This document shows positions 5,442 through 18,037 of a stretch of 64,000 nucleotides of DNA, one piece after another. The stretch is from Kribbella pittospori. Lineage in GTDB: Bacteria; Actinomycetota; Actinomycetes; Propionibacteriales; Kribbellaceae. A model generated the notes under the pieces. The model made no database searches, had not been told where the DNA came from, and was given only the letters and a program-made list of their open reading frames with translations. The position numbers and the translations under genes are program-made. Every line of letters starts with the position of its first letter. Position 1 is the first letter of the stretch. Location: positions 124,001 through 188,000 of the forward strand of contig NZ_SJKB01000012.1 in the NCBI RefSeq assembly GCF_004331465.1, read 5' to 3'.

Positions 5442-5567
5442 CCGGTCATCTTGACAGCAGCGGGGTGTCGATCGAACCGGAAGGACTCCCGCTGGGACAT
5501 CCGCGGCCGGCTCGGCGAGATCGCCGTACCGTGCACTGAGGGGAACCAGTCGGCAGTCCTGTCCGTA

Positions 5568-5591
5568 GAGTGTCTGGTACGAGTGACACTC
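5568..5591. promoter_or_regulatory. Inverted repeat upstream of the copper-related operon
   Basis: GAGTGTC (5568-5574) and GACACTC (5585-5591) form a 7-bp dyad with a 10-nt spacer, 13 bp before the ATG at 5605. It could be an operator or an mRNA hairpin for the membrane-protein gene. Which regulator would bind is unknown. Confidence 0.35.
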
Positions 5592-5604
5592 GAGGGGATC
5601 GGGA

Positions 5605-6153
5605 ATGCACGCCGAGAGCAGTGCGACGCCCGTGGTCGCGGCGCTGAGCGTCGTGGTCGCGGTGGGCGGTCATGCGCTCGCAGGTGGCACCGTCGCGTTG
5701 CAGTTGGTCTCGCCGCTGCTCGCCCTGACCGCGGTCTGCTGGCTGCTAGGTGAGTACCTCGCCGGCGAACGCGCACTGTCCGTGGTCGTTCTCGCGGCGA
5801 TCCAGCTGTTCGTCCACGTCACCCTCGACGCGGCCCACGAGCCGATGGCCATGCCGATGCACCACGGAGGGATGCCACAGGGGATCGGCGGCAGTCTCGT
5901 CATGACCGCCGCACACCTGACCGTCCTGGTAGCCGGCGTCGTCGCGATCACCGGCGCACATCGCTGGGTCCACCGGGTGCTGCGGATCTTCGCGCGTCTC
6001 CTGCCCCAGCTGCCGATCCTGACCCCAGTACGCCGGTACGCCGCCGTACTGCTCGTCGTGCCGGCATCACCGCGACTGGCTCAGCGGTGGCTCACCTCGA
6101 ACGTCTCGCGGCGCGGGCCGCCGGTCATCGCTGTGGTTTCAGCGATGTCCTGA
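5605..6153 (+). CDS. Integral membrane protein with Met/His-rich loop, copper locus
   Basis: A 182-residue protein with about four hydrophobic segments (roughly 9-28, 31-50, 56-75 and 100-120). Between segments 3 and 4, at residues 78-90, lies a loop rich in methionine and histidine (HEPMAMPMHHGGM), the kind of sequence that binds copper. The C-terminal 60 residues are basic and polar. I do not recognise the family. It precedes YcnI, CopC and CopD genes on the same strand, which supports a part in periplasmic or membrane copper handling. A hairpin separates it from the next gene, so it may be transcribed partly on its own. Confidence 0.75.
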   Translation: MHAESSATPVVAALSVVVAVGGHALAGGTVALQLVSPLLALTAVCWLLGEYLAGERALSVVVLAAIQLFVHVTLDAAHEPMAMPMHHGGMPQGIGGSLVMTAAHLTVLVAGVVAITGAHRWVHRVLRIFARLLPQLPILTPVRRYAAVLLVVPASPRLAQRWLTSNVSRRGPPVIAVVSAMS

Positions 6154-6179
6154 CCGGCCGCGTCTGCTTTCGCGGCCGG
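6154..6179 (+). terminator. Hairpin between the membrane-protein gene and ycnI
   Basis: A 9-bp GC-only stem (6154-6162 with 6171-6179) and an 8-nt loop start directly after the stop codon, followed by GTTGT. It could end or attenuate transcription before the YcnI-CopC-CopD genes. Confidence 0.5.
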
Positions 6180-6210
6180 GTTGTCCCGCGTGTTTCCGCG
6201 AAAGGTTCTC

Positions 6211-6900
6211 ATGTCCAAGAAGTTCGCCCTGCGTGCTGTCGCGATCGCGGCGGCATCCACGCTTGTTCTGGCCGGCGCCGCCACCTCGGCGTCGGCCCAC
6301 GTCACGGTGTCGTCGCCGGACGCCAAGCCCGGTGGGTACGCGAAGCTGGTCTTCCGCGTGCCGACCGAGTCCGATACGGCCGCCACCACGAAGCTCGTCG
6401 TCTCGTTGCCCAAGGACCACCCGTTCGCCAGCGTCGGCGCGCAGGTCAAGCCCGGCTGGACGGCGGTGAAGACGACCGAGCAGTTGCCCGCGCCGGTCAA
6501 GGTCGGCGACGTCACGCTGACCAAGGCGATCACCACCGTGACCTGGACCGCCACAGCCGGAGGAGTCCCGGCAGGCAACTTCGACGAGTTCTCCTTGTCC
6601 GTCGGGCGCATTCCGGACGGCGTCGACGCGTTGAGCTTCCCCGCAGTGCAGTCCTACAGCGACGGTGAGGTGGTCAAGTGGGACCAACTCGCCAAGGAGG
6701 GTGCTGAGGAGCCGGAGCACCCGGCGCCGACGCTCAAGCTGGCAGCCGCGATCACACCGGTCGCGGCAACGACGTCGGAGACCGAGGACTCGTCGGATCC
6801 GCTGGCTCGGATCCTCGGTGGCGCCGGCCTTCTGCTGGGCCTGATCGGCCTGGGCCTGGGGCTCCGGTCCCGCAAGCCGGCCGGATCCGAGAAGGCGTAG
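6211..6900 (+). CDS. YcnI-like DUF1775 copper-binding exported protein
   Basis: Residues 1-30 form a signal peptide (MSKKFALR, hydrophobic core, cleavage near SASA-HV). The mature protein begins HVTVSSPDAKPGGYAKLVFR, the DUF1775/YcnI start. Its N-terminal histidine binds Cu(II) in characterised YcnI proteins. The C-terminus has a transmembrane helix (ILGGAGLLLGLIGLGLGL) and a short basic tail, so the protein is anchored to the outer face of the membrane. I chose ATG 6211 over an in-frame earlier start because the signal peptide then begins normally. CopC follows after 2 bp and CopD after that, the usual copper-acquisition grouping. Confidence 0.9.
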   Translation: MSKKFALRAVAIAAASTLVLAGAATSASAHVTVSSPDAKPGGYAKLVFRVPTESDTAATTKLVVSLPKDHPFASVGAQVKPGWTAVKTTEQLPAPVKVGDVTLTKAITTVTWTATAGGVPAGNFDEFSLSVGRIPDGVDALSFPAVQSYSDGEVVKWDQLAKEGAEEPEHPAPTLKLAAAITPVAATTSETEDSSDPLARILGGAGLLLGLIGLGLGLRSRKPAGSEKA

Positions 6901-6902
6901 TC

Positions 6903-7415
6903 GTGCGCCGACTGATCGCAGTACTGGTGGCGTCGCTGCTCGCTCTGGTGGTTTCCACCGGGGTGGCGGCGGCGCACGCCAAACTCGAGTCGATGACCCC
7001 GGCCGACGGTTCGTCCATGGCCGCACCGCCGACCAAGGTGGTGCTGACCTTCAACGAGCCGGTCGGCAGCAACGGCACGCAGGTGCAGGTCAAGTCGCCG
7101 TCCGGGAAGAATGTGGCCACCGGCGACGTGCAGGTGATCGACAACACCGTGACCCAGCCGGTCGGCGCGATGGTCGACGCCGGTAGGTACCAGGTCGACG
7201 CCCGCGTGGTGTCGGCCGACGGCCACCCGATCACCGTCAGCGGATCGTTCTCCGTCACCCACGCCGGCCACCCGGCCACCCAGCCGGGCGGTACGCCGAC
7301 CGCCAGCCAGGACAGTGGTTCGAACACGGTCACGATCGTTGCCCTGTGCCTGGTGATGCTGGTCGTGGTGGCGCTCGCGATCGTCATCGTGCGCCGTCGG
7401 CCTGCCTCGCAATGA
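6903..7415 (+). CDS. CopC-like copper-binding protein
   Basis: A 170-residue exported protein starting at GTG. A signal peptide ends near VAAAHAKL, which leaves a mature N-terminal histidine, the copper ligand of CopC proteins. The beta-sandwich domain shows HAKLESMTPADGS, LTFNEPV and the second histidine region VVSADGHPITVSGSFSV. A Thr/Pro/Gly linker then leads to one C-terminal transmembrane helix and a basic tail. It overlaps the CopD gene by ATGA, which indicates translational coupling. CopC is thought to pass copper to CopD for import across the membrane. Confidence 0.92.
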   Translation: MRRLIAVLVASLLALVVSTGVAAAHAKLESMTPADGSSMAAPPTKVVLTFNEPVGSNGTQVQVKSPSGKNVATGDVQVIDNTVTQPVGAMVDAGRYQVDARVVSADGHPITVSGSFSVTHAGHPATQPGGTPTASQDSGSNTVTIVALCLVMLVVVALAIVIVRRRPASQ

Positions 7416-8404
7416 GGTCGGCGCGACTGACCGTCGCGGGCGGGATGGTTGCCGCTGGCATCGTGGTGATGGTGGTCGCCCTGGTCGCGGCCGGCGGTGC
7501 GCCGCAACAGTTGCCGGATGGTCTCATCGGTGCCGGAATGTCTTTGTCCTGGTCGGTTCCGGTACTGCGCTTCGTCGCCGACGCTGCCGCGATAGCAACG
7601 GGCGGTGCGCTGGTCGCCGTCGTACTATTGCTTCCAGCAACTGATGGGGTGTTGGGCCCGAAGGCGTTGCGGGCCTGCCAGGACGCGGCGATCGCGGCCG
7701 CGGTCTGGGCGGTGGCGAGCATCGGCGGGCTGATCACCTCGGCCGCGGTGATCCTGGGGATCCCGTTGTCGCACCTTGCCGAACACGCGTCCGTGGCGGG
7801 GGAGCTCTTACAGGTCAGGGCTCTGGCGGTGGCCGTCGTACTGACGGCGATTCTCGCGGTGGTCCTGAGCGGCTGCCGGACGGTCCGTGGCGCGTGGTTC
7901 GCGGTGCTGCTCACCGCAGCGGCACTGACCGGTCCGCTGCTCACCGGGCACGGCGCGATCGAGCGGACGAACGTCTGGTCCGTGCTCGCGACCACCTCGC
8001 TGGTCGTCCACGTCTTCGCGGCGACTGCCTGGATCGGCGGCCTGGGCGCCGTACTGCGGTATGCCCGGGATCGGCAGGCCGTCGAGCGCTTCAGTCGGCT
8101 CGCGCTGGTCTGTGCGATCGCGATGGGCGTCACCGGATTGCTCACCGCGGAGATCCATCTCGGCGGGCGGGAGGACGGCTGGGCGCTGATCACGCAGTGG
8201 GTCACCAGCGGGTACGGCGCTCTGGTTTTCGCGAAGACCGTGGCGTTCGCGATTCTCGTGGCGGTCGGGTGGTGGCATCGGCGTACGACGCTCCCGGAGC
8301 TGGCGGCCGGGGATCCGGCGGCGTTCCGGCGGCTGGCGGTCGTCGAGCTGCTGATCATGGCCGGGACCGTGGGCTTGGCGGTTGCCCTTTCGCGCACGCC
8401 GTGA
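7412..8404 (+). CDS. CopD-like copper-transport membrane protein
   Basis: A 330-residue polytopic protein with eight or more hydrophobic segments and typical CopD pieces: VVHVFAATAWIGGLGAV (conserved His and Trp), HLGGREDGW, and TKTVAF-like AKTVAFAILVAVGWWHRR near the end. CopD proteins are believed to move copper across the cytoplasmic membrane together with CopC. The ATG overlaps the CopC stop (ATGA), so I took it over an in-frame upstream ATG inside copC. No terminator is obvious before the MarR gene 46 bp later. Confidence 0.88.
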   Translation: MRSARLTVAGGMVAAGIVVMVVALVAAGGAPQQLPDGLIGAGMSLSWSVPVLRFVADAAAIATGGALVAVVLLLPATDGVLGPKALRACQDAAIAAAVWAVASIGGLITSAAVILGIPLSHLAEHASVAGELLQVRALAVAVVLTAILAVVLSGCRTVRGAWFAVLLTAAALTGPLLTGHGAIERTNVWSVLATTSLVVHVFAATAWIGGLGAVLRYARDRQAVERFSRLALVCAIAMGVTGLLTAEIHLGGREDGWALITQWVTSGYGALVFAKTVAFAILVAVGWWHRRTTLPELAAGDPAAFRRLAVVELLIMAGTVGLAVALSRTP

Positions 8405-8417
8405 CGTGCGGACTCGG

Positions 8418-8427
8418 TGATATGTCA
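8418..8427. promoter_or_regulatory. Candidate MarR operator upstream of marR
   Basis: TGATATGTCA is a near-palindrome 24 bp before the MarR start. Read on the other strand it gives TTGACATATCA, matching TTGACATGTCA at 8968-8978 in the promoter of the downstream reductase gene. One shared motif before both genes suggests autoregulation plus control of the target. Confidence 0.45.
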
Positions 8428-8450
8428 ACAGCTGTCCGTACAATGGGTGG

Positions 8451-8936
8451 ATGACGGAACCACGGTGGCTGGATGCGCGTGAGTCGCGCCTCTGGGAGTC
8501 GTACCGGGACGCGCATCGCGAACTGATGCGCGCCCTCGAGGCCCGGCTGATCGCGAACTCCGGGCTCTCCGGCGCCGACTACGCCCTGCTGCATCCGCTG
8601 TCCGTCGCGGAGGACGGCGTACTGCGCACCCGCGACCTGGGTAAGTCCGTCGGCTGGGAGCGCAGCCGGTTGTCGCACCAGGTCAGCCGGATGGAGAAGC
8701 GTGGGCTGGTCACTCGCGAGGAGTGCGAGTCGGACGCACGTGGCTCGATGGTCCGGCTCACCGGCCTCGGCCGGAAGGCGATCGAGGCGGCTGCACCGGA
8801 CCACGTCGAGGCCGTCCGCAGCTACTTCTTCGACCACCTGAGTCCCGAGGAACAGAGCCAGCTCAGTGTCCTCCTCGAACGCGTCCTCACCGCGGTGCCG
8901 GCGAATCCGTGCGCGACACCGGACTGCGACGAATAG
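8451..8936 (+). CDS. MarR-family transcriptional regulator
   Basis: A 161-residue winged-helix protein. After an N-terminal dimerisation helix (WLDARESRLWESYRDAHRE) the core shows DYALLHPLS, the recognition helix region LGKSVGWERSRLSHQVSRME and the wing KRGLVTREECESDARGSMV, followed by LTGLGRKAIEAA. These are standard MarR elements. The acidic C-terminus carries two cysteines (NPCATPDCDE), which might sense oxidants or metals, but this is inference. Dyads before this gene and before the downstream FMN reductase gene point to that enzyme as its target. Confidence 0.9.
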   Translation: MTEPRWLDARESRLWESYRDAHRELMRALEARLIANSGLSGADYALLHPLSVAEDGVLRTRDLGKSVGWERSRLSHQVSRMEKRGLVTREECESDARGSMVRLTGLGRKAIEAAAPDHVEAVRSYFFDHLSPEEQSQLSVLLERVLTAVPANPCATPDCDE

Positions 8937-8967
8937 ATCACATCCGACCGTCTCGTGAACCCTTGGG

Positions 8968-8995
8968 TTGACATGTCATCTCGATTGGGTATTTT
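8968..8995 (+). promoter_or_regulatory. Sigma-70-type promoter of the FMN reductase gene
   Basis: A consensus TTGACA at 8968-8973 is followed, after 16 bp, by TATTTT at 8990-8995. The -35 lies inside the palindrome TGACATGTCA (8969-8978). The -10 overlaps the larger palindrome that starts at 8993. Confidence 0.65.
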
Positions 8996-9012
8996 GGTGA
9001 TGCATCACCAAA
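8993..9012. promoter_or_regulatory. Perfect 20-bp palindrome over the -10/start region
   Basis: TTTGGTGATG and its exact mirror meet at 9002/9003, giving a gap-free 20-bp palindrome 39 bp before the reductase start. Its place over the -10 and probable transcription start fits a repressor site, most simply for the adjacent MarR protein. Confidence 0.6.
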
Positions 9013-9050
9013 GAGCCTTCGGGCGCCCCTCTCTTCGTGAAGGAACAGTC

Positions 9051-9620
9051 ATGCCCAAGATCGCGATCATCCTCGGCAGCACCCGCCCGGGCCGCAACGG
9101 CGAAGCCGTGGCGCAGTGGGTGCTGGATCTCGCCAAGCAGCGCAGCGACGCCGAGTTCGAGCTGGTCGACATCGCCGACTACAAGCTGCCGCACCTCGAC
9201 GAGGCCGTGCCGCCGTCGATGGGTCAGTACAGCCAGCCGCACACGCACGCCTGGGCCGAGAAGATCGGGTCGTTCGACGGGTTCGTCTTCGTCACCCCGG
9301 AGTACAACCACTCGACGTCCGGCGCGCTGAAGAACGCGATCGACTTCCTGTTCAAGGAGTGGAACGACAAGGCGGCCGGCTTCGTCAGCTACGGCGCCGT
9401 CGGCGGCGCCCGCGCGGTCGAGCACCTGCGCCTGGTGATGGGCGAGCTCAAGGTCGCCGACGTCCGCAACCAGGTCACGCTGTCGCTGGCCACCGACTTC
9501 AAGAACTACTCCGAGTTCGCCCCGGCCGACTTCCACGAGCCCGAGGTCCACGCCATGCTCGACCAGGTGATCAGCTGGAGCAACGCCCTCGCCAGCGTGC
9601 GAGTCCCCGCCGCTGCCTGA
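9051..9620 (+). CDS. NADPH-dependent FMN reductase family protein
   Basis: A 189-residue flavodoxin-fold reductase. The phosphate loop IILGSTRPGRNGEAVAQW sits at residues 5-22. The FMN-binding VTPEYNHSTSGALKNAIDFL follows near 85, and GFVSYGAVGGARAVEHLR near 112. The family (also called azoreductase or quinone reductase) passes electrons from NADPH through FMN to quinones, azo dyes or chromate. I chose ATG 9051 because GAAGGA at 9039-9044 is a good ribosome site and the earlier start would place the promoter inside the gene. It is probably repressed by the upstream MarR protein and ends at a clear terminator. Confidence 0.92.
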   Translation: MPKIAIILGSTRPGRNGEAVAQWVLDLAKQRSDAEFELVDIADYKLPHLDEAVPPSMGQYSQPHTHAWAEKIGSFDGFVFVTPEYNHSTSGALKNAIDFLFKEWNDKAAGFVSYGAVGGARAVEHLRLVMGELKVADVRNQVTLSLATDFKNYSEFAPADFHEPEVHAMLDQVISWSNALASVRVPAAA

Positions 9621-9635
9621 TCGTCCTGCTTCTCC

Positions 9636-9674
9636 AGCCCGTCCCGGTGCTCTCTGCGCCGGGGCGGGCTTTCT
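9636..9674 (+). terminator. Terminator after the FMN reductase gene
   Basis: A 12-bp stem (9636-9647 with 9659-9670, one G-T pair) with an 11-nt loop is followed by TTCT. It lies 16 bp past the stop codon and isolates the reductase unit from the ABC operon. Confidence 0.8.
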
Positions 9675-9775
9675 GGTGGTGACTCCCGGTATTCAGACGT
9701 GACACGCCGTCACGGAGAGCAGTCGGGGGACGGGGTCGGAAGAATGATGGCGTCGGGTTCGGATGCGCGCTGGAT

Positions 9776-9795
9776 TTGACAATCGTTTTCACTAA
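9776..9795. promoter_or_regulatory. Zur/Fur-type operator before the ABC-PLP-MFS operon
   Basis: TGACAATCGTTTTCA (9777-9791) is a 7-1-7 dyad with two mismatched pairs, very like the actinobacterial Zur box as I remember it (TGAAAATGATTTTCA type). The bases TTGACA at 9776-9781 can also serve as a -35 element, so a bound repressor would block the promoter. It is the only AT-rich dyad in this gap and ends 20 bp before the chosen GTG start. Fur or another FUR-family member cannot be excluded. Confidence 0.6.
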
Positions 9796-9811
9796 CGTGA
9801 GGATGTGGCGC

Positions 9812-11344
9812 GTGTCCGATGCTCTGAACAGACGCGGGTTCCTGGGGCTGGCCGGTGCGTCGGCACTGGCCGGACTGACCGGTTGCGGCGCCGATGGCGA
9901 GGCCGCGGCCCAACCGAAGAACGGCGGCCGGCTGCGGGCCGTGTACGCCGGTGGCGGTGCCAAGGAGGTCCTCGATCCGCACGTCCAGAGCCTGTTCGTG
10001 GACATCGCGCGGCACAAGGCGACGTACGAGAAGCTGGTCGAGCTCGGGCCTGATCTGAAGCCGGTTGGGCGGCTGGCCGAGAAGTGGGAGCACGACGGCG
10101 AGGCGACGACCTGGCGGTTCAGTCTCCGGGATGCGACCTTTCACGACGGCGGGAAGCTGACCAGCGAGGACGTGCTCTACAGCCTCGCCCGGATCGCCGA
10201 CCCGGCCGTGCCGGAACGCGTCGCTCAGTCGTCGCTCGCGACCCTGGACCTGCGGCGCAGCCGGGCCGTCGATGCGCGCACGGTCGAGCTGACGCTGACC
10301 GCGCCGAACGCGGAATTCCCTGCCCTGCTGGCGGGAATCGGGACCCAGATCGTGCGGGACGGCTTCAAGGATCCGGCGAAACCGGTCGGGACCGGCCCGT
10401 TCCGGTTCGTCTCGTTCGCGGCCGGCCGGTCGATGATCGCGAACCGGTACGACGACTACTGGGACGAGCCGGCCCGGATCGAGGAACTGCACATCCTCTC
10501 CGCCGACTCCGAGGCTCGGGCGAACGCCGTACAGGGTGGACAGGCGGAGTACGCGAATGACATGACTGCGACGTTTGCGCGGACCGCGTCGGCCGGTCGG
10601 ACGGTGCGGATCGTGGCGGCGAAGGCCAGCACGATGCAGGCGTTTGTGATGAAGGTGGATCGGCCGCCGTTCGACAATCCGGATGTGCGGATGGCGTTCA
10701 AGCTGCTCGCCGACCGGCAGCGGTTGGTCGACGTGGTGCTCGCGGGTCGTGGTGAGGTCGGAAATGACCTGTTCGGCAAGGGGTATCAGTACTATCCGGC
10801 CGACCTGGCGCAGCGGGAGCGCAACGTGTCGGAGGCCAAGGACCTTCTGCGGAAGACCGGGTTGGTGAACAAGGAGATCGAGTTCCTGACCGCGGATGCA
10901 TCGGCTGGGTTTGTCGAGTCGGCCACGCTGTTCGCGGAGCAGGTTGCTGAGGCTGGGGTGAAGCTCAAGATCGTTCCGGGGAGTGCGCAGACGTACGCGA
11001 AGGACCTGCTGACGAAGGGGGGCATTGGCAACCATCGGTCCGGTGCGATGCCGATTCCGCAGTACGTCACTGATCGGCTGCTGAGCAAGTCGCCGTTCAA
11101 TGTGACGCATTGGCGCCGGGCTGGTTTTGACGCTGGGTTTGCGGCTGCGCAGCGGTTGACGGATGAGGGTGCGCGGTCGGCGAAGTACGGCGAGCTGCAG
11201 GGGACGCTGCGGGACGAGGGCGGCATTCTTGCGTGGGGGCTGCCGGATTATCTGGTCGCGGTGTCGGCGACGGTGCAGGGGGTGCAGGCGGTGCCGCCGA
11301 ACACGCTGGACTCCGGCCGGTTCGACAAGGTGTGGCTGGCCTGA
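9812..11344 (+). CDS. ABC transporter substrate-binding lipoprotein, family 5 (Opp/Nik/Cnt type)
   Basis: A 510-residue extracytoplasmic binding protein. The N-terminus combines a twin-arginine stretch (NRRGFLGLAGASALAGL) with a lipobox LTGC near residue 22, so it is probably exported folded and lipid-anchored. The SBP_bac_5 body shows DPHVQSLFVDIARHKATYEKLVE, LAEKWEHDGEATTWRFSLRD, FHDGGKLTSEDVLYSLARI and GTGPFRFV. I chose GTG 9812 because GTGAGG at 9797-9802 precedes it; TTG 9776 lies in the operator. Family 5 proteins bind peptides, nickel chelates or metallophores such as staphylopine (CntA). The operon context favours a metal complex. The permease follows at once (1 bp after the stop). 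Confidence 0.92.
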   Translation: MSDALNRRGFLGLAGASALAGLTGCGADGEAAAQPKNGGRLRAVYAGGGAKEVLDPHVQSLFVDIARHKATYEKLVELGPDLKPVGRLAEKWEHDGEATTWRFSLRDATFHDGGKLTSEDVLYSLARIADPAVPERVAQSSLATLDLRRSRAVDARTVELTLTAPNAEFPALLAGIGTQIVRDGFKDPAKPVGTGPFRFVSFAAGRSMIANRYDDYWDEPARIEELHILSADSEARANAVQGGQAEYANDMTATFARTASAGRTVRIVAAKASTMQAFVMKVDRPPFDNPDVRMAFKLLADRQRLVDVVLAGRGEVGNDLFGKGYQYYPADLAQRERNVSEAKDLLRKTGLVNKEIEFLTADASAGFVESATLFAEQVAEAGVKLKIVPGSAQTYAKDLLTKGGIGNHRSGAMPIPQYVTDRLLSKSPFNVTHWRRAGFDAGFAAAQRLTDEGARSAKYGELQGTLRDEGGILAWGLPDYLVAVSATVQGVQAVPPNTLDSGRFDKVWLA

Positions 11345-12283
11345 ATGCGGTCGTACGCCGGACAGCGGGCGCTGCTCGCCGTCCTTCAGCTAGGTGTGCT
11401 GTCGGTGTTGGTGTTCGTGCTGACTGCGTTGCTGCCGGGGGATGCGGCGGACATGCGGTTCACCGAGACGCTGACGCCGGATCAGGTGTCGCGGCTGCGT
11501 GCTGAGCTGGGGCTCGACCAGCCTTTGGTGGAACGGTTTGTTGGTTGGTTCGGCGGCGTGGTCAGGGGTGATCTGGGTACGTCGTTGATCAGCGGGGGGC
11601 CGGTGGTCGACATCGTGAAGAGCTCGGTCGGGGCGACGCTGGTGCTCACGCTGGCCACGCTCGCGGTCGTCGTGCCACTGGCTGTTGCCCTCGGCATTCT
11701 TATGGGGACGCGGGAGGGCGGGCGGCTCGATCGGGCGATCACGTCGGTGACGCTGGCGTTGAGTGCGATCCCGGACTTCGTGATCTCGGTGCTGCTGGTG
11801 GCGGTGTTCTCGCTGAAGCTCGGGTGGTTGCCGGCGACCTGGATCGGCGGGTCGCTGCTCGCTTCGCCGGTGTTGCTGGTCCTGCCAGTTGCGGTGCTTC
11901 TTGGGCGCACGGTCTGCTTGCTGTCACGCCAGGTGCGCGCGGGGACGATCACGGCGCTGACCGCGGAGTACGTCGTACAGGCGCGGAGGCTTGGGGTCCC
12001 CCGACGACGGTTGCTGCTCCGGCACGTGCTGCCGAACGCCGCGGTCCCCGGCGTACAGGAGCTGGCTCGAACTGGCGACACGTTGCTGGGTGGGGTCCTC
12101 GTGGTCGAGGCGATCTTCGCCATCCCCGGCTTCGCCACCGCCTTGGTAGACGGCGTCGAAACCCGCGACGTCCCAGTGGTCCAGGGCCTGACCCTCGTCC
12201 TAGCAGTAGCCGCCCTCCTCCTCAACCTAGCCGCCGACCTCCTCTGCAACCGCCTGGTCCCCCGAACGGAACTCCTCCGATGA
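11345..12283 (+). CDS. ABC transporter permease, DppB/NikB/CntB type
   Basis: A 312-residue membrane protein with about six transmembrane helices. The N-terminal TM helix is followed by a large outer loop with DQVSRLRAELGLDQPLVERFVGW and a GDLGTSL signature, typical of the first permease of peptide/nickel importers. The EAA coupling loop is YVVQARRLGVPRRRLLLRHV near residues 200-220. Start and stop abut or overlap the neighbours (ATGA with the next permease). The last 100 bases switch to strongly C-rich codon choice. It is one half of the channel for the operon's importer. Confidence 0.92.
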   Translation: MRSYAGQRALLAVLQLGVLSVLVFVLTALLPGDAADMRFTETLTPDQVSRLRAELGLDQPLVERFVGWFGGVVRGDLGTSLISGGPVVDIVKSSVGATLVLTLATLAVVVPLAVALGILMGTREGGRLDRAITSVTLALSAIPDFVISVLLVAVFSLKLGWLPATWIGGSLLASPVLLVLPVAVLLGRTVCLLSRQVRAGTITALTAEYVVQARRLGVPRRRLLLRHVLPNAAVPGVQELARTGDTLLGGVLVVEAIFAIPGFATALVDGVETRDVPVVQGLTLVLAVAALLLNLAADLLCNRLVPRTELLR

Positions 12284-13236
12284 ACCGCACACCTGAACGA
12301 CGGGTCGTCGCGTCTGACCCGGGTGACGTCGCCAGCGGTCGGCGGCGCCTGCGTGCCGGGGTGCTCGGACGTTTGCGAGCGCTCGGTGGGCGGCGCGCGG
12401 GTTCTGGGAGGGCGGGGGGTGACGGACGGCTTCGGGTGGTCCGTGGTCGGGTTTCGGGTGTTGTGGGGGTGGGGTTGGTTGGGGTTCCTGTGGGAGTGGC
12501 GGTGTTCGGGCCTCTGGTGCGGGTTGGGGTGGGGGCGGGGTTGCCTTATGCGTCGGATGGGGTTTTGGGGACGGATGGGTTGGGGCGGGATGTGCTGCAA
12601 CTCCTGCTGGTGGGTGGGAGGACGGCTCTGGGGATGGCGATCGGGGCTGTGGTGATCGCGTACGTGATCGGTGGGTTGATTGGGTTGGTGGCTGCGTCGA
12701 CGCGGCACCGGTGGTTGGACGAGGGGTTGATCCGGCCGCTCGACGTACTGCTGCCGTTGCCTTCGCTTCTCGTGATCAGCGTGGTCGCGGTCGGGTGGCG
12801 GGCGTCGGCGCTCGCGATCACGTTGGCGGTTGCCTTGGTCAACGTCCCGACGGTTGCCCGGTTGGTCCGGGCGGCTGCGCTGGACGCTGCGAGCAGTCCG
12901 GTGGTCGAAGCCCTTCGGATGCAGCGCGAGTCCTGGTTCGCCATCCACCTCGGGTACGTCGGGCGGTCTGTCCTCGCCCCGGTCGCCGCCGACCTCGGCA
13001 CCCGCATCACCCTCGGCGTGTTCCTGGTTGCCTCCGTCAACTTCCTCGGCTTGGGCCTCAGCCCCACCGCCCCCGACTGGGCGGTCAGCATCTCCCGCAA
13101 CCGCGAAGGCCTCCTCCTCCAACCCTGGTCCGTCCTGGCGCCGGCCCTCCTCCTGGTCTCGTTCACCCTAGGTTTCAACCTCCTGGCCGACCGCCTCCTC
13201 CACCACACCCGCCGCCCGACCGAGGCCACCCGATGA
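12280..13236 (+). CDS. ABC transporter permease, DppC/NikC/CntC type
   Basis: A 318-residue second permease. The first 45 residues are basic, Gly/Arg-rich and low in complexity. The membrane domain then shows GTDGLGRDVLQLLLVGGRTAL, the classic DppC-type signature, followed by further helices. The EAA loop is degenerate (VVEALRMQRESWFAIHLGYV), yet the following SVLAPVAADLGTRITLGVFL fits the family. The coding strand is G/T-rich for the first half and C-rich near the end. ATGA overlaps at both ends show tight coupling. Confidence 0.9.
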   Translation: MNRTPERRVVASDPGDVASGRRRLRAGVLGRLRALGGRRAGSGRAGGDGRLRVVRGRVSGVVGVGLVGVPVGVAVFGPLVRVGVGAGLPYASDGVLGTDGLGRDVLQLLLVGGRTALGMAIGAVVIAYVIGGLIGLVAASTRHRWLDEGLIRPLDVLLPLPSLLVISVVAVGWRASALAITLAVALVNVPTVARLVRAAALDAASSPVVEALRMQRESWFAIHLGYVGRSVLAPVAADLGTRITLGVFLVASVNFLGLGLSPTAPDWAVSISRNREGLLLQPWSVLAPALLLVSFTLGFNLLADRLLHHTRRPTEATR

Positions 13237-14924
13237 CCACCCCACCCCCCGATCCCCCATCTGCTGGGCTGACCCATCCGTCGGTGGGTTGGCCCATGGG
13301 ATTCCGGTTGGCCAACCCACCGTCTGCTGGGTCGACCCAGCAGACGCCGCAGGAGTCGGGTGGGACCGGGCGGCGGGACGTGGTCGTGCGGGTGAGGGGG
13401 CTGGGGGCTTTTGCTGGGCATGCCGTTCTGGTGGATGGGGTTTCGTTTGTGGTGGGGGTGGGGGAGGTTACGGCGTTGGTGGGGGCTTCGGGGTCGGGGA
13501 AGACTACTTCGGCCTTGGCGTTGTTGGGGGAGGTTGGGGAAGGGGTTCGGCTGGAGGGGAGGGTGGAGGTCGGGGGAGAGGTCATTGTTGATGGCAACGG
13601 AGTGACGGAGGCGGCGGCGGGGGTTCGGGGGCGGGTGGTGGCGTATATGCCTCAGCATCCGGGGAGTGCGCTCAATCCGGCGCGGCGGATCGGTACGACG
13701 TTGCGTGAGCTCGAGGGGCTGCATCACCGTGGGGAGTCGGTGGTCCCGGGAGCCCTTAGGGCGGCGCAGTTGCCGGCGGATCGGGAGACGTTGCGGAGGT
13801 TTCCGCATCAGTTCTCGGGTGGGCAGCGGCAGCGGGTCGCGCTTGCGCAGGCGTTGACGTGCCGCCCGAAGGTACTGGTGCTGGACGAGCCGAGCACCGG
13901 CCTCGACTCGATCACCCGCCTGCAGTTGGTCCACGAGCTGAGAGAGCTGGCCGCCGACGGGCTCGGGATCTTGTTGCTGAGTCACGATCTCGACCTGGTC
14001 CGCGCGCTCGCCACCCGCGTCGTGGTGCTGTCCGCCGGCCGAGTGATCGACTCCGGCGGTCCCGACGTACTCCCAGAAGCACCCGACCTCGAGCGATCGG
14101 GAACCACTGCCGCCGGGCATCCGTTGCTCCAGGCAATGAAGCTGTCCGCGTCGCTGCGTCCCCGCGGCCGCGACCCCATCCTGCACGAGATCGACCTCGC
14201 CGTCCGCCCGGGCGCGTGCGTGGGCGTCGTCGGCCGTTCCGGTAGTGGCAAGACCACGTTGGCCCGCTGCCTGGCCGGCCTGCACGAGCGCTACACCGGC
14301 GGCCTCCTCCTGGACGACGAACCGCTACCCGTCCTACGCAAGCGATCACGCCCCCAGAACCGCCGCGTCCAGTACGTCTGGCAAGAGGTCCGCGGCTCGT
14401 TCGACGAGCGCCGCCCGGTCGATCAGCAAGTCGCCCGGACAGCCCAACGCCTCCGGGGCCTCGACCCCAAGCAGGCCCACGCCGAAGCCGTCGCGACCCT
14501 CGCCCGCCTCGGCGTCTCCGCGATGACAGCAGCCCGTACGCCGAGCCGCCTCTCCGGTGGTGAGCTGCAACGGGCCGCCCTCGCCCGGGCCGTCCTGGCG
14601 CACCCCGACGTACTGATCTGCGACGAGATCACCACCGCGCTCGACGACCGCGGTACGGCGCTCGTCGTCGAACTGCTGACCGAGCTGAAGGACCGCGGTA
14701 CCGCGCTGATCTGGATCGGCCACGACCTCGGCCTGGTCGCGGCGGTCTCCGACCACGTCCTGGTGATCGATGCCGGCCGCGTGGTCGAGCAAGGACGACC
14801 CGCGACCGTCATGACCGAACCGCACCACGAACTGACCCGGCGGCTGGTGAGGGCCGCCTCGATCGGTCACCCACAATCTCCGCCCGTGCTGACAATCGAC
14901 ACGAGGAGCGAACCGCGCCGATGA
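13233..14924 (+). CDS. Fused double ABC ATPase (DppD-DppF/CntD-CntF type)
   Basis: A 563-residue cytoplasmic protein joins the two ATPases that are separate genes in most peptide/nickel/staphylopine importers. Domain 1: Walker A GASGSGKTT at 84-92, signature FSGGQRQRVALAQAL, Walker B VLVLDEPSTGLD, switch LLLSHD. Domain 2: Walker A GRSGSGKTT near 333, signature LSGGELQRAALARA, Walker B LICDEITTALDD, switch WIGHD. Both sites look catalytically complete. The N-terminal 45 residues are a Pro/Ser/Gly-rich extension coded by a palindrome-dense DNA block (13259-13346). ATGA overlaps couple it to both neighbours. Confidence 0.93.
   Translation: MTTPPPDPPSAGLTHPSVGWPMGFRLANPPSAGSTQQTPQESGGTGRRDVVVRVRGLGAFAGHAVLVDGVSFVVGVGEVTALVGASGSGKTTSALALLGEVGEGVRLEGRVEVGGEVIVDGNGVTEAAAGVRGRVVAYMPQHPGSALNPARRIGTTLRELEGLHHRGESVVPGALRAAQLPADRETLRRFPHQFSGGQRQRVALAQALTCRPKVLVLDEPSTGLDSITRLQLVHELRELAADGLGILLLSHDLDLVRALATRVVVLSAGRVIDSGGPDVLPEAPDLERSGTTAAGHPLLQAMKLSASLRPRGRDPILHEIDLAVRPGACVGVVGRSGSGKTTLARCLAGLHERYTGGLLLDDEPLPVLRKRSRPQNRRVQYVWQEVRGSFDERRPVDQQVARTAQRLRGLDPKQAHAEAVATLARLGVSAMTAARTPSRLSGGELQRAALARAVLAHPDVLICDEITTALDDRGTALVVELLTELKDRGTALIWIGHDLGLVAAVSDHVLVIDAGRVVEQGRPATVMTEPHHELTRRLVRAASIGHPQSPPVLTIDTRSEPRR
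13259..13346. repeat. Palindrome-dense block inside the ATPase gene start
   Basis: Three dyads lie within 88 bp of coding DNA. The first has 13-bp arms at 13282-13294 and 13310-13322 with a 15-nt loop. The second is a 12-bp palindrome GGTTGGCCAACC at 13306-13317. The third is a perfect gap-free 26-bp palindrome at 13321-13346. A direct repeat also links 13259-13275 and 13323-13339 (TCTGCTGGG, then GACCCA). The encoded residues are a non-conserved linker. It looks like an inserted REP-type sequence or a set of mRNA hairpins. Confidence 0.7.
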
Positions 14925-15967
14925 CGCGACTGCACGACCACCTGGCGGAGGCGATCAAGGACCCGGATCCGATCCGGGTCGGCGATCATCTGATCTGCCT
15001 GCGGTTCGAGACGATGAAGGTGTACTCCGCGCTCGGCGCCGTCCGGCACCTGCTGGAGACCGGCGCGGTCCGGCCCGGCGACACGCTGATCGACAGCTCG
15101 AGCGGGATCTACGCGCATGCGCTGGCGCTGGCCTGTCACCGGTACGGGATGAGGTGCCACATCGTTGGCTCGACCACCGTTGACCGGACGCTCAAGATCC
15201 AGCTGGAGATCCTCGGCGCGACCGTCGAGCAGGTGCCGTCGTCGAACAACCTGCAGCTCGACCAGAACCTCCGGGTCCGCCGGATCGGCGAGATCCTGCG
15301 CGACAACCCGTCGTACCACTGGATGCAGCAGTACCACGACGACATCCACTACCTCGGGTACGGCGCGGTCGCGGATCTCGTGGCCGAACTCGTGCCGGCC
15401 GGCCCGCTGTGTCTCGTCGGAGGGGTCGGGACCGGCGCGTCGACGGGTGCGATCGCGGAGTACCTGCGCGATCGCGGCCGGGACGTGAACCTGGTCGGCG
15501 TACAGCCGTTCGGCAGCATCACCTTCGGCGCCGGGCACACCCAGGATCCGGAGATGATCATCGCGGGGATCGGCAGCTCGATCGAGTTCCGCAACGTCCG
15601 GCACGAGCTGTACGACCGGCTGCACTGGGTGTCGTTCGACTACGCGATGTCGGCCGCGGTGGACCTGCTACGGACGTCCGGGGTGTTCGCGGGCCTGTCC
15701 GCGGGAGCGGCGTACCTCTCGGCGCTGTGGGAACACAACTGCGACAGCAGCCGTAAGCATGTGTTCCTGGCCGCCGACACCGGGACGCGGTACGTCGAGT
15801 CCGCGTTCGCCCGGCACGCCGACGCCCGGCCGATGGAGTCGATGCGACCGCGCGAGATCGACTCGCTGGACCAGCTCGCGGTGCCGTGGTCGGCCATGTC
15901 GTGGGACCGCCGGGAATCTGCCTGGACACGGCGCGAGGAGTTTCCATCTGCGACTCCGTCGCATTAG
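14921..15967 (+). CDS. Fold-type II PLP enzyme, cysteine synthase / SbnA-like family
   Basis: A 348-residue cytosolic enzyme of the cysteine synthase superfamily. Lys33 in RFETMKVYSALGA is the expected Schiff-base lysine. SSSGIYAHALA (near 68) takes the place of the substrate Asn loop. GGVGTGASTGAIAEYL (near 167) is the glycine-rich phosphate-binding loop, and GVFAGLSAGAAYLSA is the late PLP-ring segment. The substrate loop differs from OASS (SGIYA instead of SGNTG), so it is not a housekeeping cysteine synthase. SbnA, a remembered relative, makes a diaminopropionate precursor of staphyloferrin B. In this operon it probably builds an amino-acid-derived metal ligand. That is inference. Confidence 0.8.
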   Translation: MTRLHDHLAEAIKDPDPIRVGDHLICLRFETMKVYSALGAVRHLLETGAVRPGDTLIDSSSGIYAHALALACHRYGMRCHIVGSTTVDRTLKIQLEILGATVEQVPSSNNLQLDQNLRVRRIGEILRDNPSYHWMQQYHDDIHYLGYGAVADLVAELVPAGPLCLVGGVGTGASTGAIAEYLRDRGRDVNLVGVQPFGSITFGAGHTQDPEMIIAGIGSSIEFRNVRHELYDRLHWVSFDYAMSAAVDLLRTSGVFAGLSAGAAYLSALWEHNCDSSRKHVFLAADTGTRYVESAFARHADARPMESMRPREIDSLDQLAVPWSAMSWDRRESAWTRREEFPSATPSH

Positions 15968-16001
15968 TGTTTGGCCTGACCGACGACCGAAAGGCTGGCC
16001 G

Positions 16002-16814
16002 ATGACCGCTTCCGTGGCTGCGCTCACCTCGTCTGTCCTCGCTGGTTCCCGAGGTCCGGCTCCGTCGACGCTGTCCGTGACGAGCGCGTTCTGGCTGCAT
16101 CACACGACTCGGCTGCCGGGCGCCGAGGTGACGTACCGGAACTACTACGTCCTGCTCCGCGTCGGCGAAGTCTTCGGCGCGTGCTCGTTCGAGGCCGGCG
16201 AGCTCGATCCGTCGTACTGCGCGGATGCGTCCGGCGTGTCGCTGGACGAGTTGATCGCGGATGGTCCGTTGCCGGTGAGGATCGCGGCACTGGACGCGTA
16301 TCTCGCGTCGGTGGAGCCGCATCATTCGGCAGCCGGAGCCGAGGAGATCGTGCTTCCCGCCGGTGCGCCGGACGTCCGCGCACGGGCCCGGGATGCGGCG
16401 GTCGCCGGGCTGCTCGACGTTCGACCCGGCTGGAAGGTCGCGCTGATCGGGGTGGTGAACCCACTCGTCGACGCGATCACCGAGCGGGGTGGGATCTGCT
16501 TGCCCTGCGACTTCAACCTGCGCGAGACCGCGTCCGGGCTGCCAGTTTCTCGTGACATGACTGAGGTCATCGACGCCGCCGACGCCGTCGTGGCGACCGG
16601 GATGACCTTGTCCAACGGGAGTTTCGACGTACTCCTCGATCGTTGCCGCCAGCAATCGAAGCCACTGGCGATCTATGCGCAGACCGGGAGTGCTGTGGTC
16701 CGCGCCTTCCTCGGCTCCGGAGTCACGGCCCTCTCCGCCGAGCCCTTCCCCTTCTCCCAGTTCAGTGCCCGCTCCACCTCCCTCTACCGCTACCCCACCA
16801 GGACGGACGCATGA
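16002..16814 (+). CDS. DUF364 (putative heavy-metal chelation) Rossmann-like protein
   Basis: A 270-residue protein. The N-terminal 90 residues (VTYRNYYVLLRVGEVFGAC) resemble the DUF4213 half, and the rest is DUF364. The latter has a Rossmann-like VALIGVVNPLVDAI, GGICLPCDFNLRETASG, DMTEVIDAADAVVATGMTLSN, YAQTGSAV and the ending AEPFPFSQFSARSTSLYRY. The Pfam family is named for possible metal chelation, but no reaction is established that I know of. Cys and His residues are few. GAAAGG-type ribosome site at 15988-15993 precedes ATG 16002. It sits between the PLP enzyme and the exporter, so a biosynthetic or metal-loading role is likely. Confidence 0.82.
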   Translation: MTASVAALTSSVLAGSRGPAPSTLSVTSAFWLHHTTRLPGAEVTYRNYYVLLRVGEVFGACSFEAGELDPSYCADASGVSLDELIADGPLPVRIAALDAYLASVEPHHSAAGAEEIVLPAGAPDVRARARDAAVAGLLDVRPGWKVALIGVVNPLVDAITERGGICLPCDFNLRETASGLPVSRDMTEVIDAADAVVATGMTLSNGSFDVLLDRCRQQSKPLAIYAQTGSAVVRAFLGSGVTALSAEPFPFSQFSARSTSLYRYPTRTDA

Positions 16815-18037
16815 GCAGTGTCGTCGGCCGGCGGCCGACAGAGGTGCCTGGGGATCTGTGGATGGTACGGCGGTTGTGGCCGTTCCTGGTGGCGTCGGCG
16901 GTGAGTTTGATTCCGTTCACGGTGTTCGGGATGTACCTGGTGCCGATCGCGGCCGCGGCTGGTGGGGATGTGGCGGAGATCGGCGGGTTGCGGGGGCTGG
17001 GTGGATTGGCCGCGTTGGTGGTCGGATTCTTGGTGGCGCCGTTGATCGATCGGTTGGCGCGGGAGTTGGTGGCTGCGGGTGGGCTGGCGTTGCTGGGGGT
17101 CTCGGCGGCGCTTGGTGCTGTGGGCAACGTGTTTGCGCTGGCGGCGTTCTGTTTGTTGATCGGGGCATCCACCTCGATCCTTGCGCCGTCGATCGGTGCG
17201 GCCGCGGCCGACCGGTTCACGTCCGCGGCGGCGGCAGGGCGGGCCGCGACGCTGGTGTCCGCGACCACCTCGATGATGGCGATGCTGGCTGCACCGGTTC
17301 TCGCCGTACCAGGACTGCTGTGGGGTTGGCGAGGCAACCTGCTCGCCGCGTCGACCGTCTCGTTGGCGTTGTCGGCTGCGTTCTTCTGGCGTGGCCGCGG
17401 CCGGAAGGCGCCGCTGCGGGTGGGCGGCAACCAACGGATCAGCTACCTCACGACGTACCGCGAGTTGGCCCGGATCCCCGGCGCCCTTCCGCTGCTCGTC
17501 GTCGCGATGCTCCGGACGGCCGCCTTCATGGGATACCTGGCGTACCTCGCTGCCTTCTACGACGAGAAGTTCGACCTTGCACCAGGCTGGTTCGCACTCG
17601 TCTGGTCGCTGAGCGGCGCGTCGTTCTTCCTCGGCAACCTCCTGGCCGGCCGCCACATCGCGCTCGAACGTCCGTGGATCGGCCCGGAGAAGATGTTGCT
17701 TATCGGGCTCAGCGTCGCGCTGACCAGCGTTGTCCTCTTCTACTTCTCACCGACGCTTCCGCTGACTCTCGTCCTGACCGCACTCCTCGGTGCCAGCCAC
17801 GCGACCGTCGCCGCCTGCGTCACCACTCTTCTGGTCCGCCGCAGTGGAGATCTCCGCGGCTCGGCCCTCAGCGTCAACGCCGCCGGGATGAGCCTCGGCA
17901 CGTTCCTCGGCGCGGCCATCGGCGGTCTCGGCCTGGGCCTCGGCGGGTACCCGGGCACCGCGCTGGCGTTCTCCGCGATCACGCTGCTCGCGGTCCTGTT
18001 CGCGGTCCGAGTACGCCGTACACCGAGCCTGACCTGA
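16811..18037 (+). CDS. MFS efflux transporter, probable metallophore exporter
   Basis: A 408-residue transporter with about twelve hydrophobic segments and the usual 6+6 layout. Family pieces include GLRGLGGLAALVVGFLVAPL, DRLARELVAAGGLALLG (the loop 2-3 region) and GASTSILAPSIGAAAADRF. The ATG overlaps the DUF364 stop (ATGA). In Cnt-type opine-metallophore operons an MFS protein (CntE) exports the product, and the position here as last gene after the biosynthetic pair is the same. The substrate is inferred from context. No good terminator follows before 18094. Confidence 0.88.
   Translation: MSSVVGRRPTEVPGDLWMVRRLWPFLVASAVSLIPFTVFGMYLVPIAAAAGGDVAEIGGLRGLGGLAALVVGFLVAPLIDRLARELVAAGGLALLGVSAALGAVGNVFALAAFCLLIGASTSILAPSIGAAAADRFTSAAAAGRAATLVSATTSMMAMLAAPVLAVPGLLWGWRGNLLAASTVSLALSAAFFWRGRGRKAPLRVGGNQRISYLTTYRELARIPGALPLLVVAMLRTAAFMGYLAYLAAFYDEKFDLAPGWFALVWSLSGASFFLGNLLAGRHIALERPWIGPEKMLLIGLSVALTSVVLFYFSPTLPLTLVLTALLGASHATVAACVTTLLVRRSGDLRGSALSVNAAGMSLGTFLGAAIGGLGLGLGGYPGTALAFSAITLLAVLFAVRVRRTPSLT

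Follow-up and report, generated by a model that had tools for sequence, protein, structure and literature searches.

A putative Zur-controlled zincophore operon pairing a PLP enzyme with a DUF364 protein in Kribbella pittospori

Gene content of the locus

The 64,000-nucleotide stretch of the Kribbella pittospori genome analyzed here (contig NZ_SJKB01000012.1, positions 124,001 to 188,000; hereafter, the window) contains a seven-gene operon at 9803-18037 that includes the genes for a pyridoxal 5'-phosphate (PLP) enzyme and a DUF364 protein. In order, the operon encodes a NikA/CntA-like lipoprotein, two Opp-type permeases, a fused double ATPase of the ATP-binding cassette (ABC) type, the PLP enzyme, the DUF364 protein, and an exporter of the major facilitator superfamily (MFS). 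The initial annotation of this DNA correctly placed the two genes within 14921-16814, with PLP at 14921-15967 and DUF364 at 16002-16814, but its coordinates omit the rest of the operon and the promoter. The features of the locus, all on the forward strand, are as follows.

9777..9791, forward strand: Zur box TGACAATCGTTTTCA, a 7-1-7 palindrome 11 bp upstream of the first ATG of the operon, matching the published consensus
9803..11344, forward strand: solute-binding lipoprotein, SBP_bac_5, NikA/CntA-like (PF00496, 8.7e-68)
11345..12283, forward strand: Opp/Nik-type permease B (PF00528 and PF19300)
12283..13236 (approximate start), forward strand: Opp/Nik-type permease C (PF00528, 4.5e-15)
13233..14924, forward strand: fused double ABC ATPase, NikDE/CntDF-like (two ABC_tran stretches)
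14921..15967, forward strand: PLP enzyme of fold type II, SbnA/CysK kin with an altered asparagine loop, SSSGIY (PF00291, residues, Foldseek)
16002..16814, forward strand: divergent DUF364 protein (PF04016; structure match to 3l5o and 3npg)
16811..18037, forward strand: MFS transporter, putative metallophore exporter (PF07690, 3.4e-26; co-conserved)

The lipoprotein carries a Tat-like signal (NRRGFLGLAG..LTGC), as read from the sequence, and scores 132 bits against the NCBIfam model Opp5A_nikA and 60 bits against CntA, neither reaching the cut-off. The top NCBIfam models for permease B (Opp2B/Opp1B) also scored under the cut-off, as did both NikD (292 bits) and CntF (262 bits) for the fused ATPase. 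Overlaps of 4 bp join the PLP gene to the ATPase gene and the MFS gene to the DUF364 gene. Synteny of the operon is retained in the 12 Kribbella-type relatives that were read, except for the draft locus L044, where the upstream part is absent, and a single DUF364 homologue per genome was found in 37 of the 37 same-genus genomes searched, among them the genome of the window.

Zur box and the putatively regulated genes

The box at 9777-9791 exactly matches the 15-bp actinobacterial Zur box TGaNAANNNTTNtCA; the actinobacterial consensus, taaTGaNAANNNTTNtCANta, was derived from 17 genomes (PMC5472717). The strict motif occurs at 3 sites in the 9.49 Mb genome, compared with 0 for the reversed pattern. 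The other two sites lie directly before znuABC (ZnuA, PF01297, 264 bits) and before a cobW/COG0523 gene that encodes a CobW_C protein, both classical Zur targets (PMC6103462). Across 38 Kribbella genomes, the strict pattern was detected 3-7 times per genome and the reversed control 0 or 1 times.

A Zur box precedes the operon in 16 of 18 Kribbella loci, with both exceptions lacking the binding-protein gene, and is present in 11 of 12 separately fetched Kribbella-type loci, a set that has species in common with the first and in which the exception also lacks the binding-protein gene (11/11 intact loci). Using a score matrix trained on Kribbella sites, including those of znuABC and cobW, and without checking site-to-gene distances one by one, a Zur-like site of at least 14 bits was identified in 55 of 60 loci from Streptomyces and other non-Kribbella genera (reversed control, 1/60). 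The looser S. coelicolor motif tGaNNatSatNNtCa yielded 7 sites in the genome and 1 when reversed; the box in the window, with its centre TCGT, does not match this motif, which was not used.

Because the strict Zur box is common only to the operon, znuABC and the cobW gene, zinc, not iron, is most likely the metal concerned. The small amino-acid chelator proposed in the initial annotation fits these data well, but an iron siderophore reading was dropped because the promoter has a Zur box, which points to zinc. An iron-box-like pattern, TTAGG.TAG.CTAACC, was absent from loci L037-L056 in a search with this one pattern on the plus strand only.

The PLP enzyme

The PLP protein (348 amino acids; Pfam PALP, 1.8e-32) contains K33 within FETMKVYS, the loop SSSGIYAHA at residues 59-67, and GVGTGASTG at 168-176. 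The initial reading, that it keeps the Schiff-base lysine region and the phosphate loop and has SSSGIYAHA for S-G-N-T-G, holds. In an alignment of 27 homologues, K33, S59, S60, S61, G62, I63, R118, Q137 and Y138 are all invariant, so that the change in the loop is a constant trait of these proteins and not a sequencing error. At the position of SSSGIY, SbnA and CysK have S-x-SGN. In line with the suggestion that the protein should not be a normal sulfhydrylase, identity as a true CysK was rejected: it scores 77 bits against the CysK/CysM equivalog cut-off of 351, and its loop (SSGIYA) is without SGNTG.

The nearest solved relatives by profile are SbnA (147.6 bits) and CmnB (136.9 bits), and the top four Foldseek matches of the PLP model are all SbnA. 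The suggested kinship with SbnA stands to this extent, but identity as a true SbnA was rejected, the TIGR03945 score being 125 bits against an equivalog cut-off of 349.95 (350). In the profile alignment with SbnA, on which positions were counted by hand from the printed alignment, K33 corresponds to the Lys of SbnA, S61 to its conserved active-site-loop Ser75, and G62 to the following Gly, and I63 replaces Asn; R118, Y138 and G170 correspond to Arg132, Tyr152 and Ser185, which have been reported as O-phosphoserine selectors (PMC12414870). This residue set is incomplete in the PLP enzyme, with R118 and Y138 kept and Gly170 as the counterpart of Ser185. By this alignment, the active site seems fit for beta-substitution but tuned to other substrates. 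The enzyme likely makes the chelator building block.

The DUF364 protein

The DUF364 protein (270 amino acids) matches PF04016 at 2.3e-10, with 40.7 bits against a gathering cut-off of 23. Its AlphaFold2 model (predicted local distance difference test, pLDDT, 91) most closely resembles the two DUF364 structures that have been solved, 3l5o (Dhaf4260) and 3npg (PH1506), with Z scores of 18.6 and 18.2, respectively, followed by a next best match at 10.9; the remaining Rossmann-like hits, of which most are to large domains of fold-type-I PLP enzymes (Z ~10), were taken as generic. CDFN and AQTGS stand in the Rossmann part where ordinary DUF364 proteins of the phylum have LER and GPS/GPT motifs, and the TG-x-T-x-x-N motif is largely retained.

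The CLPCDFN patch (16497-16517), initially described as conserved, is so only in part: its second Cys (C169) and the adjoining Asp (D170) do not vary, but Pro takes the place of the first Cys in 17 of 37 homologues, and a CxxC metal site was accordingly rejected. Assignment as a nucleotide-binding dehydrogenase was also discarded, with no GxGxxG seen in the sequence. A pocket of enzymatic look and a metal-transporter or proposed metal-chelation context have been described for DUF364 (PMC2954201), and the protein encoded in the window may perform a second biosynthetic step or handle the imported chelate.

Co-occurrence and variation among related loci

Among the 80 best relatives of the DUF364 protein in named genomes, which span several genera, 76 loci encode the PLP enzyme and most encode the MFS protein. 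The contig edge adjoins DUF364 in the exceptions L092 and L127 (contig start) and L106 (contig end). At L070 (Kribbella sindirgiensis, around 10001), DUF364 and MFS are kept, and no PLP gene, importer or Zur box is found in 20.8 kb that contain no Ns; the PLP gene and importer seem to have been lost, or the locus misassembled. According to the initial annotation, its proposal would be refuted if DUF364 were found mostly without a PLP partner. This is the case for ordinary DUF364 proteins of other lineages, which have no PLP partner in 13 of 14 loci (the remaining one is a 28% match to the B-type PLP query), but not for the actinomycete subfamily.

The importer is of the Opp type, with a binding protein, in 24 loci and of the FecBCD type in 50, or both are present. 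Extra enzymes also differ by locus, including a PhyH oxygenase (L058), a GHMP kinase (L096), a methyltransferase (L053) and an L-amino-acid ligase (L056); such varying tailoring enzymes are typical of a biosynthetic cluster. The PhyH-family gene of L058 (9240-10001) lies between PLP and DUF364, where the operon in the window has none, and gaps of similar size in L059, L060, L066-L068, L073 and L074 are predicted to hold PhyH genes. At L096, the GHMP-family kinase gene (10813-11823) lies between DUF364 and PLP, and similar gaps occur in other Streptomyces-type loci. Placed next to an SbnA-like enzyme, such a kinase may provide a hydroxy amino acid (serine or threonine) in phosphorylated form; no homologue of this kinase was found in the window's own genome, in a search without a positive control.

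The distantly related loci L054, L055 and L056, in which the loop Asn is replaced by Thr rather than Ile, form a second cluster type. Here, DUF364 and MFS are accompanied by an L-amino-acid ligase of the ATP-grasp kind, a related binding protein and a PLP enzyme that is nearer to SbnA, and Zur-like boxes lie close to where the ligase gene begins. In two genomes of a phylum-wide sample (loci L158 and L159), PLP_A was found without DUF364 at the locus. The former encodes a methyltransferase, PLP_A, an ATP-grasp ligase and MFS at 5486-9774, perhaps an amino-acid-derived natural product cluster, and the latter has PLP and MFS; neither an importer nor a Zur box was seen in the regions read of these two loci.

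Proposed function and alternatives

With good though not full confidence, we interpret the operon as a Zur-controlled make-export-import system for a zincophore of a new biosynthetic type, a reading drawn from gene content and promoter. At low zinc, Zur would leave its box and the operon would be expressed. By kinship with SbnA and CmnB, the PLP enzyme would convert an activated serine (O-acetyl- or O-phosphoserine), or the threonine counterpart, into an aminoacrylate and add to it an amine, probably that of an amino acid, as the nucleophile, yielding a diamino acid, or an N-(2-amino-2-carboxyethyl)-amino-acid-like or N-carboxyalkyl amino acid chelator or building block. DUF364 would then complete the product or process the chelate; the MFS protein would export the chelator, which would capture zinc; and the lipoprotein and the Opp-type ABC transporter would re-import the zinc complex. 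The export and re-import roles are proposed because this architecture is common to staphylopine-type zincophore loci.

Several observations weigh against this interpretation: a set of two enzymes is small for making a chelator; the operon in the window has no SbnB-like, opine-dehydrogenase-like or kinase gene; the pLDDT of the PLP model is only moderate (75.6); and a FecCD permease lies within ~6 kb of ordinary DUF364 in 7 of 14 loci without PLP, a frequency for which the chance rate was not measured. A more specific version, in which the PLP enzyme and DUF364 alone constitute the minimal pathway of a new class of small zincophores widespread among Kribbella, Streptomyces, Amycolatopsis and their relatives, giving DUF364 its first assigned reaction, is one that we advance tentatively and hold as a serious possibility. 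The two-step pathway of the initial annotation is likewise plausible only, with the subfamily pairing (76/80) in its favour and both the DUF364-free PLP_A loci and the ordinary DUF364 proteins without a PLP partner contrary to it.

A somewhat unlikely alternative retains the zincophore operon but assigns chelator synthesis to the PLP enzyme and housekeeping enzymes, with a cytosolic DUF364 that frees the metal or recycles the ligand from the imported zinc-chelate. Such an uptake-side role may apply to DUF364 because FecCD importers adjoin its ordinary members without PLP, and the metal-transporter context of the family (PMC2954201) and the importer-less, Zur-box-less state of L158 and L159 are consistent with it. 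However, PLP_A loci without an importer number just these two, the Kribbella DUF364 gene sits between those of the PLP enzyme and the exporter, overlapping the latter, and the DUF364 pocket has an enzymatic look (PMC2954201), although no reaction follows from that.

We consider it improbable that the operon imports and degrades a foreign chelator, either a xenometallophore or a plant nicotianamine-like ligand, with PLP and DUF364 freeing zinc and MFS expelling the ligand. The importer, the Zur box and the two enzymes are compatible with this scenario, and opine dehydrogenase was not found in the window's genome (with an empty control), but the enzymes that vary among loci (PhyH, GHMP kinase, methyltransferase, L-amino-acid ligase) are those usual in synthesis, and the nearest characterized kin of the PLP enzyme, SbnA and CmnB, are biosynthetic. 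Zur-regulated handling of a different metal (nickel or cobalt, for example) is less probable still: NikA, NikB and NikD profiles are among the top scorers for several parts of the Nik/Opp-like transporter, but every Nik score is under its equivalog cut-off, CntD/F come close to them in score for the ATPase, other loci have a FecBCD-type importer, and Zur regulation points to zinc. Finally, PALP and SBP_bac_5 are common families, but a chance juxtaposition of ordinary cysteine-synthase-like and DUF364 genes downstream of a peptide transporter has next to no credibility, being already contradicted by the pairing in 76 of 80 loci from several genera with swapped importers and by the conserved Zur box.

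The Zur-controlled zincophore reading, if correct, would mean that many soil actinomycetes carry zincophore clusters of an apparently undescribed family, and it offers zinc starvation as a concrete, testable physiological setting for DUF364, a family without an assigned reaction; if the minimal-pathway version is true, that reaction would act on an amino-acid metallophore. A comparative set is at hand, from the two-enzyme minimal version in the window to versions with a kinase, oxygenase, methyltransferase or ligase elsewhere.

Comparison with known systems

Zur-controlled zincophore systems are of a known kind, whereas the PLP and DUF364 enzyme set is apparently undescribed, no description of it having been found in searches of open-licence papers. 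The operon resembles the opine zincophore loci (cnt: staphylopine, bacillopaline, pseudopaline) in its Opp- or FecCD-type ABC importer with adjoining biosynthetic genes and, for the staphylopine and bacillopaline types, in its MFS exporter (PMC7438024); the combination that marks cnt loci, an Opp- or FecCD-type importer with an MFS/EamA exporter, is present in the operon and its relatives. The choice between importers seen among the relatives mirrors that reported for opine zincophore clusters, which in actinobacteria carry the FecCD type or both (PMC7438024), and Zur control is reported for the pseudopaline locus (PMC6103462). In contrast to cnt, the biosynthetic part in the window consists of the PLP enzyme and DUF364. 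CntK/CntL/CntM-like genes were not seen among the scanned operon genes, nor opine genes at the relatives' loci, and a genome search for the PF10100 opine dehydrogenase found none, with the control genomes equally empty; CntL was not searched genome-wide.

Compared with its closest solved relatives, SbnA (staphyloferrin B, L-Dap pathway) and CmnB (capreomycin), the PLP enzyme keeps the counterparts of Lys, Arg132 and Tyr152; unlike SbnA, it has Ile for the active-site-loop Asn, Gly for Ser185, a shorter N-terminal part, and no SbnB-like partner in the operon. The coelibactin cluster of Streptomyces is non-ribosomal and far larger than the operon in the window. The likeness to coelibactin, and to [S,S]-EDDS of Amycolatopsis japonicum, is that these are Zur-controlled actinomycete metallophore clusters (PMC6103462, PMC5472717). 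With Dhaf4260 (3l5o) and PH1506 (3npg), the DUF364 protein shares the whole fold and a proposed metal-chelation context (PMC2954201), but it is barely alignable with them outside the Rossmann part and is linked to a PLP enzyme.

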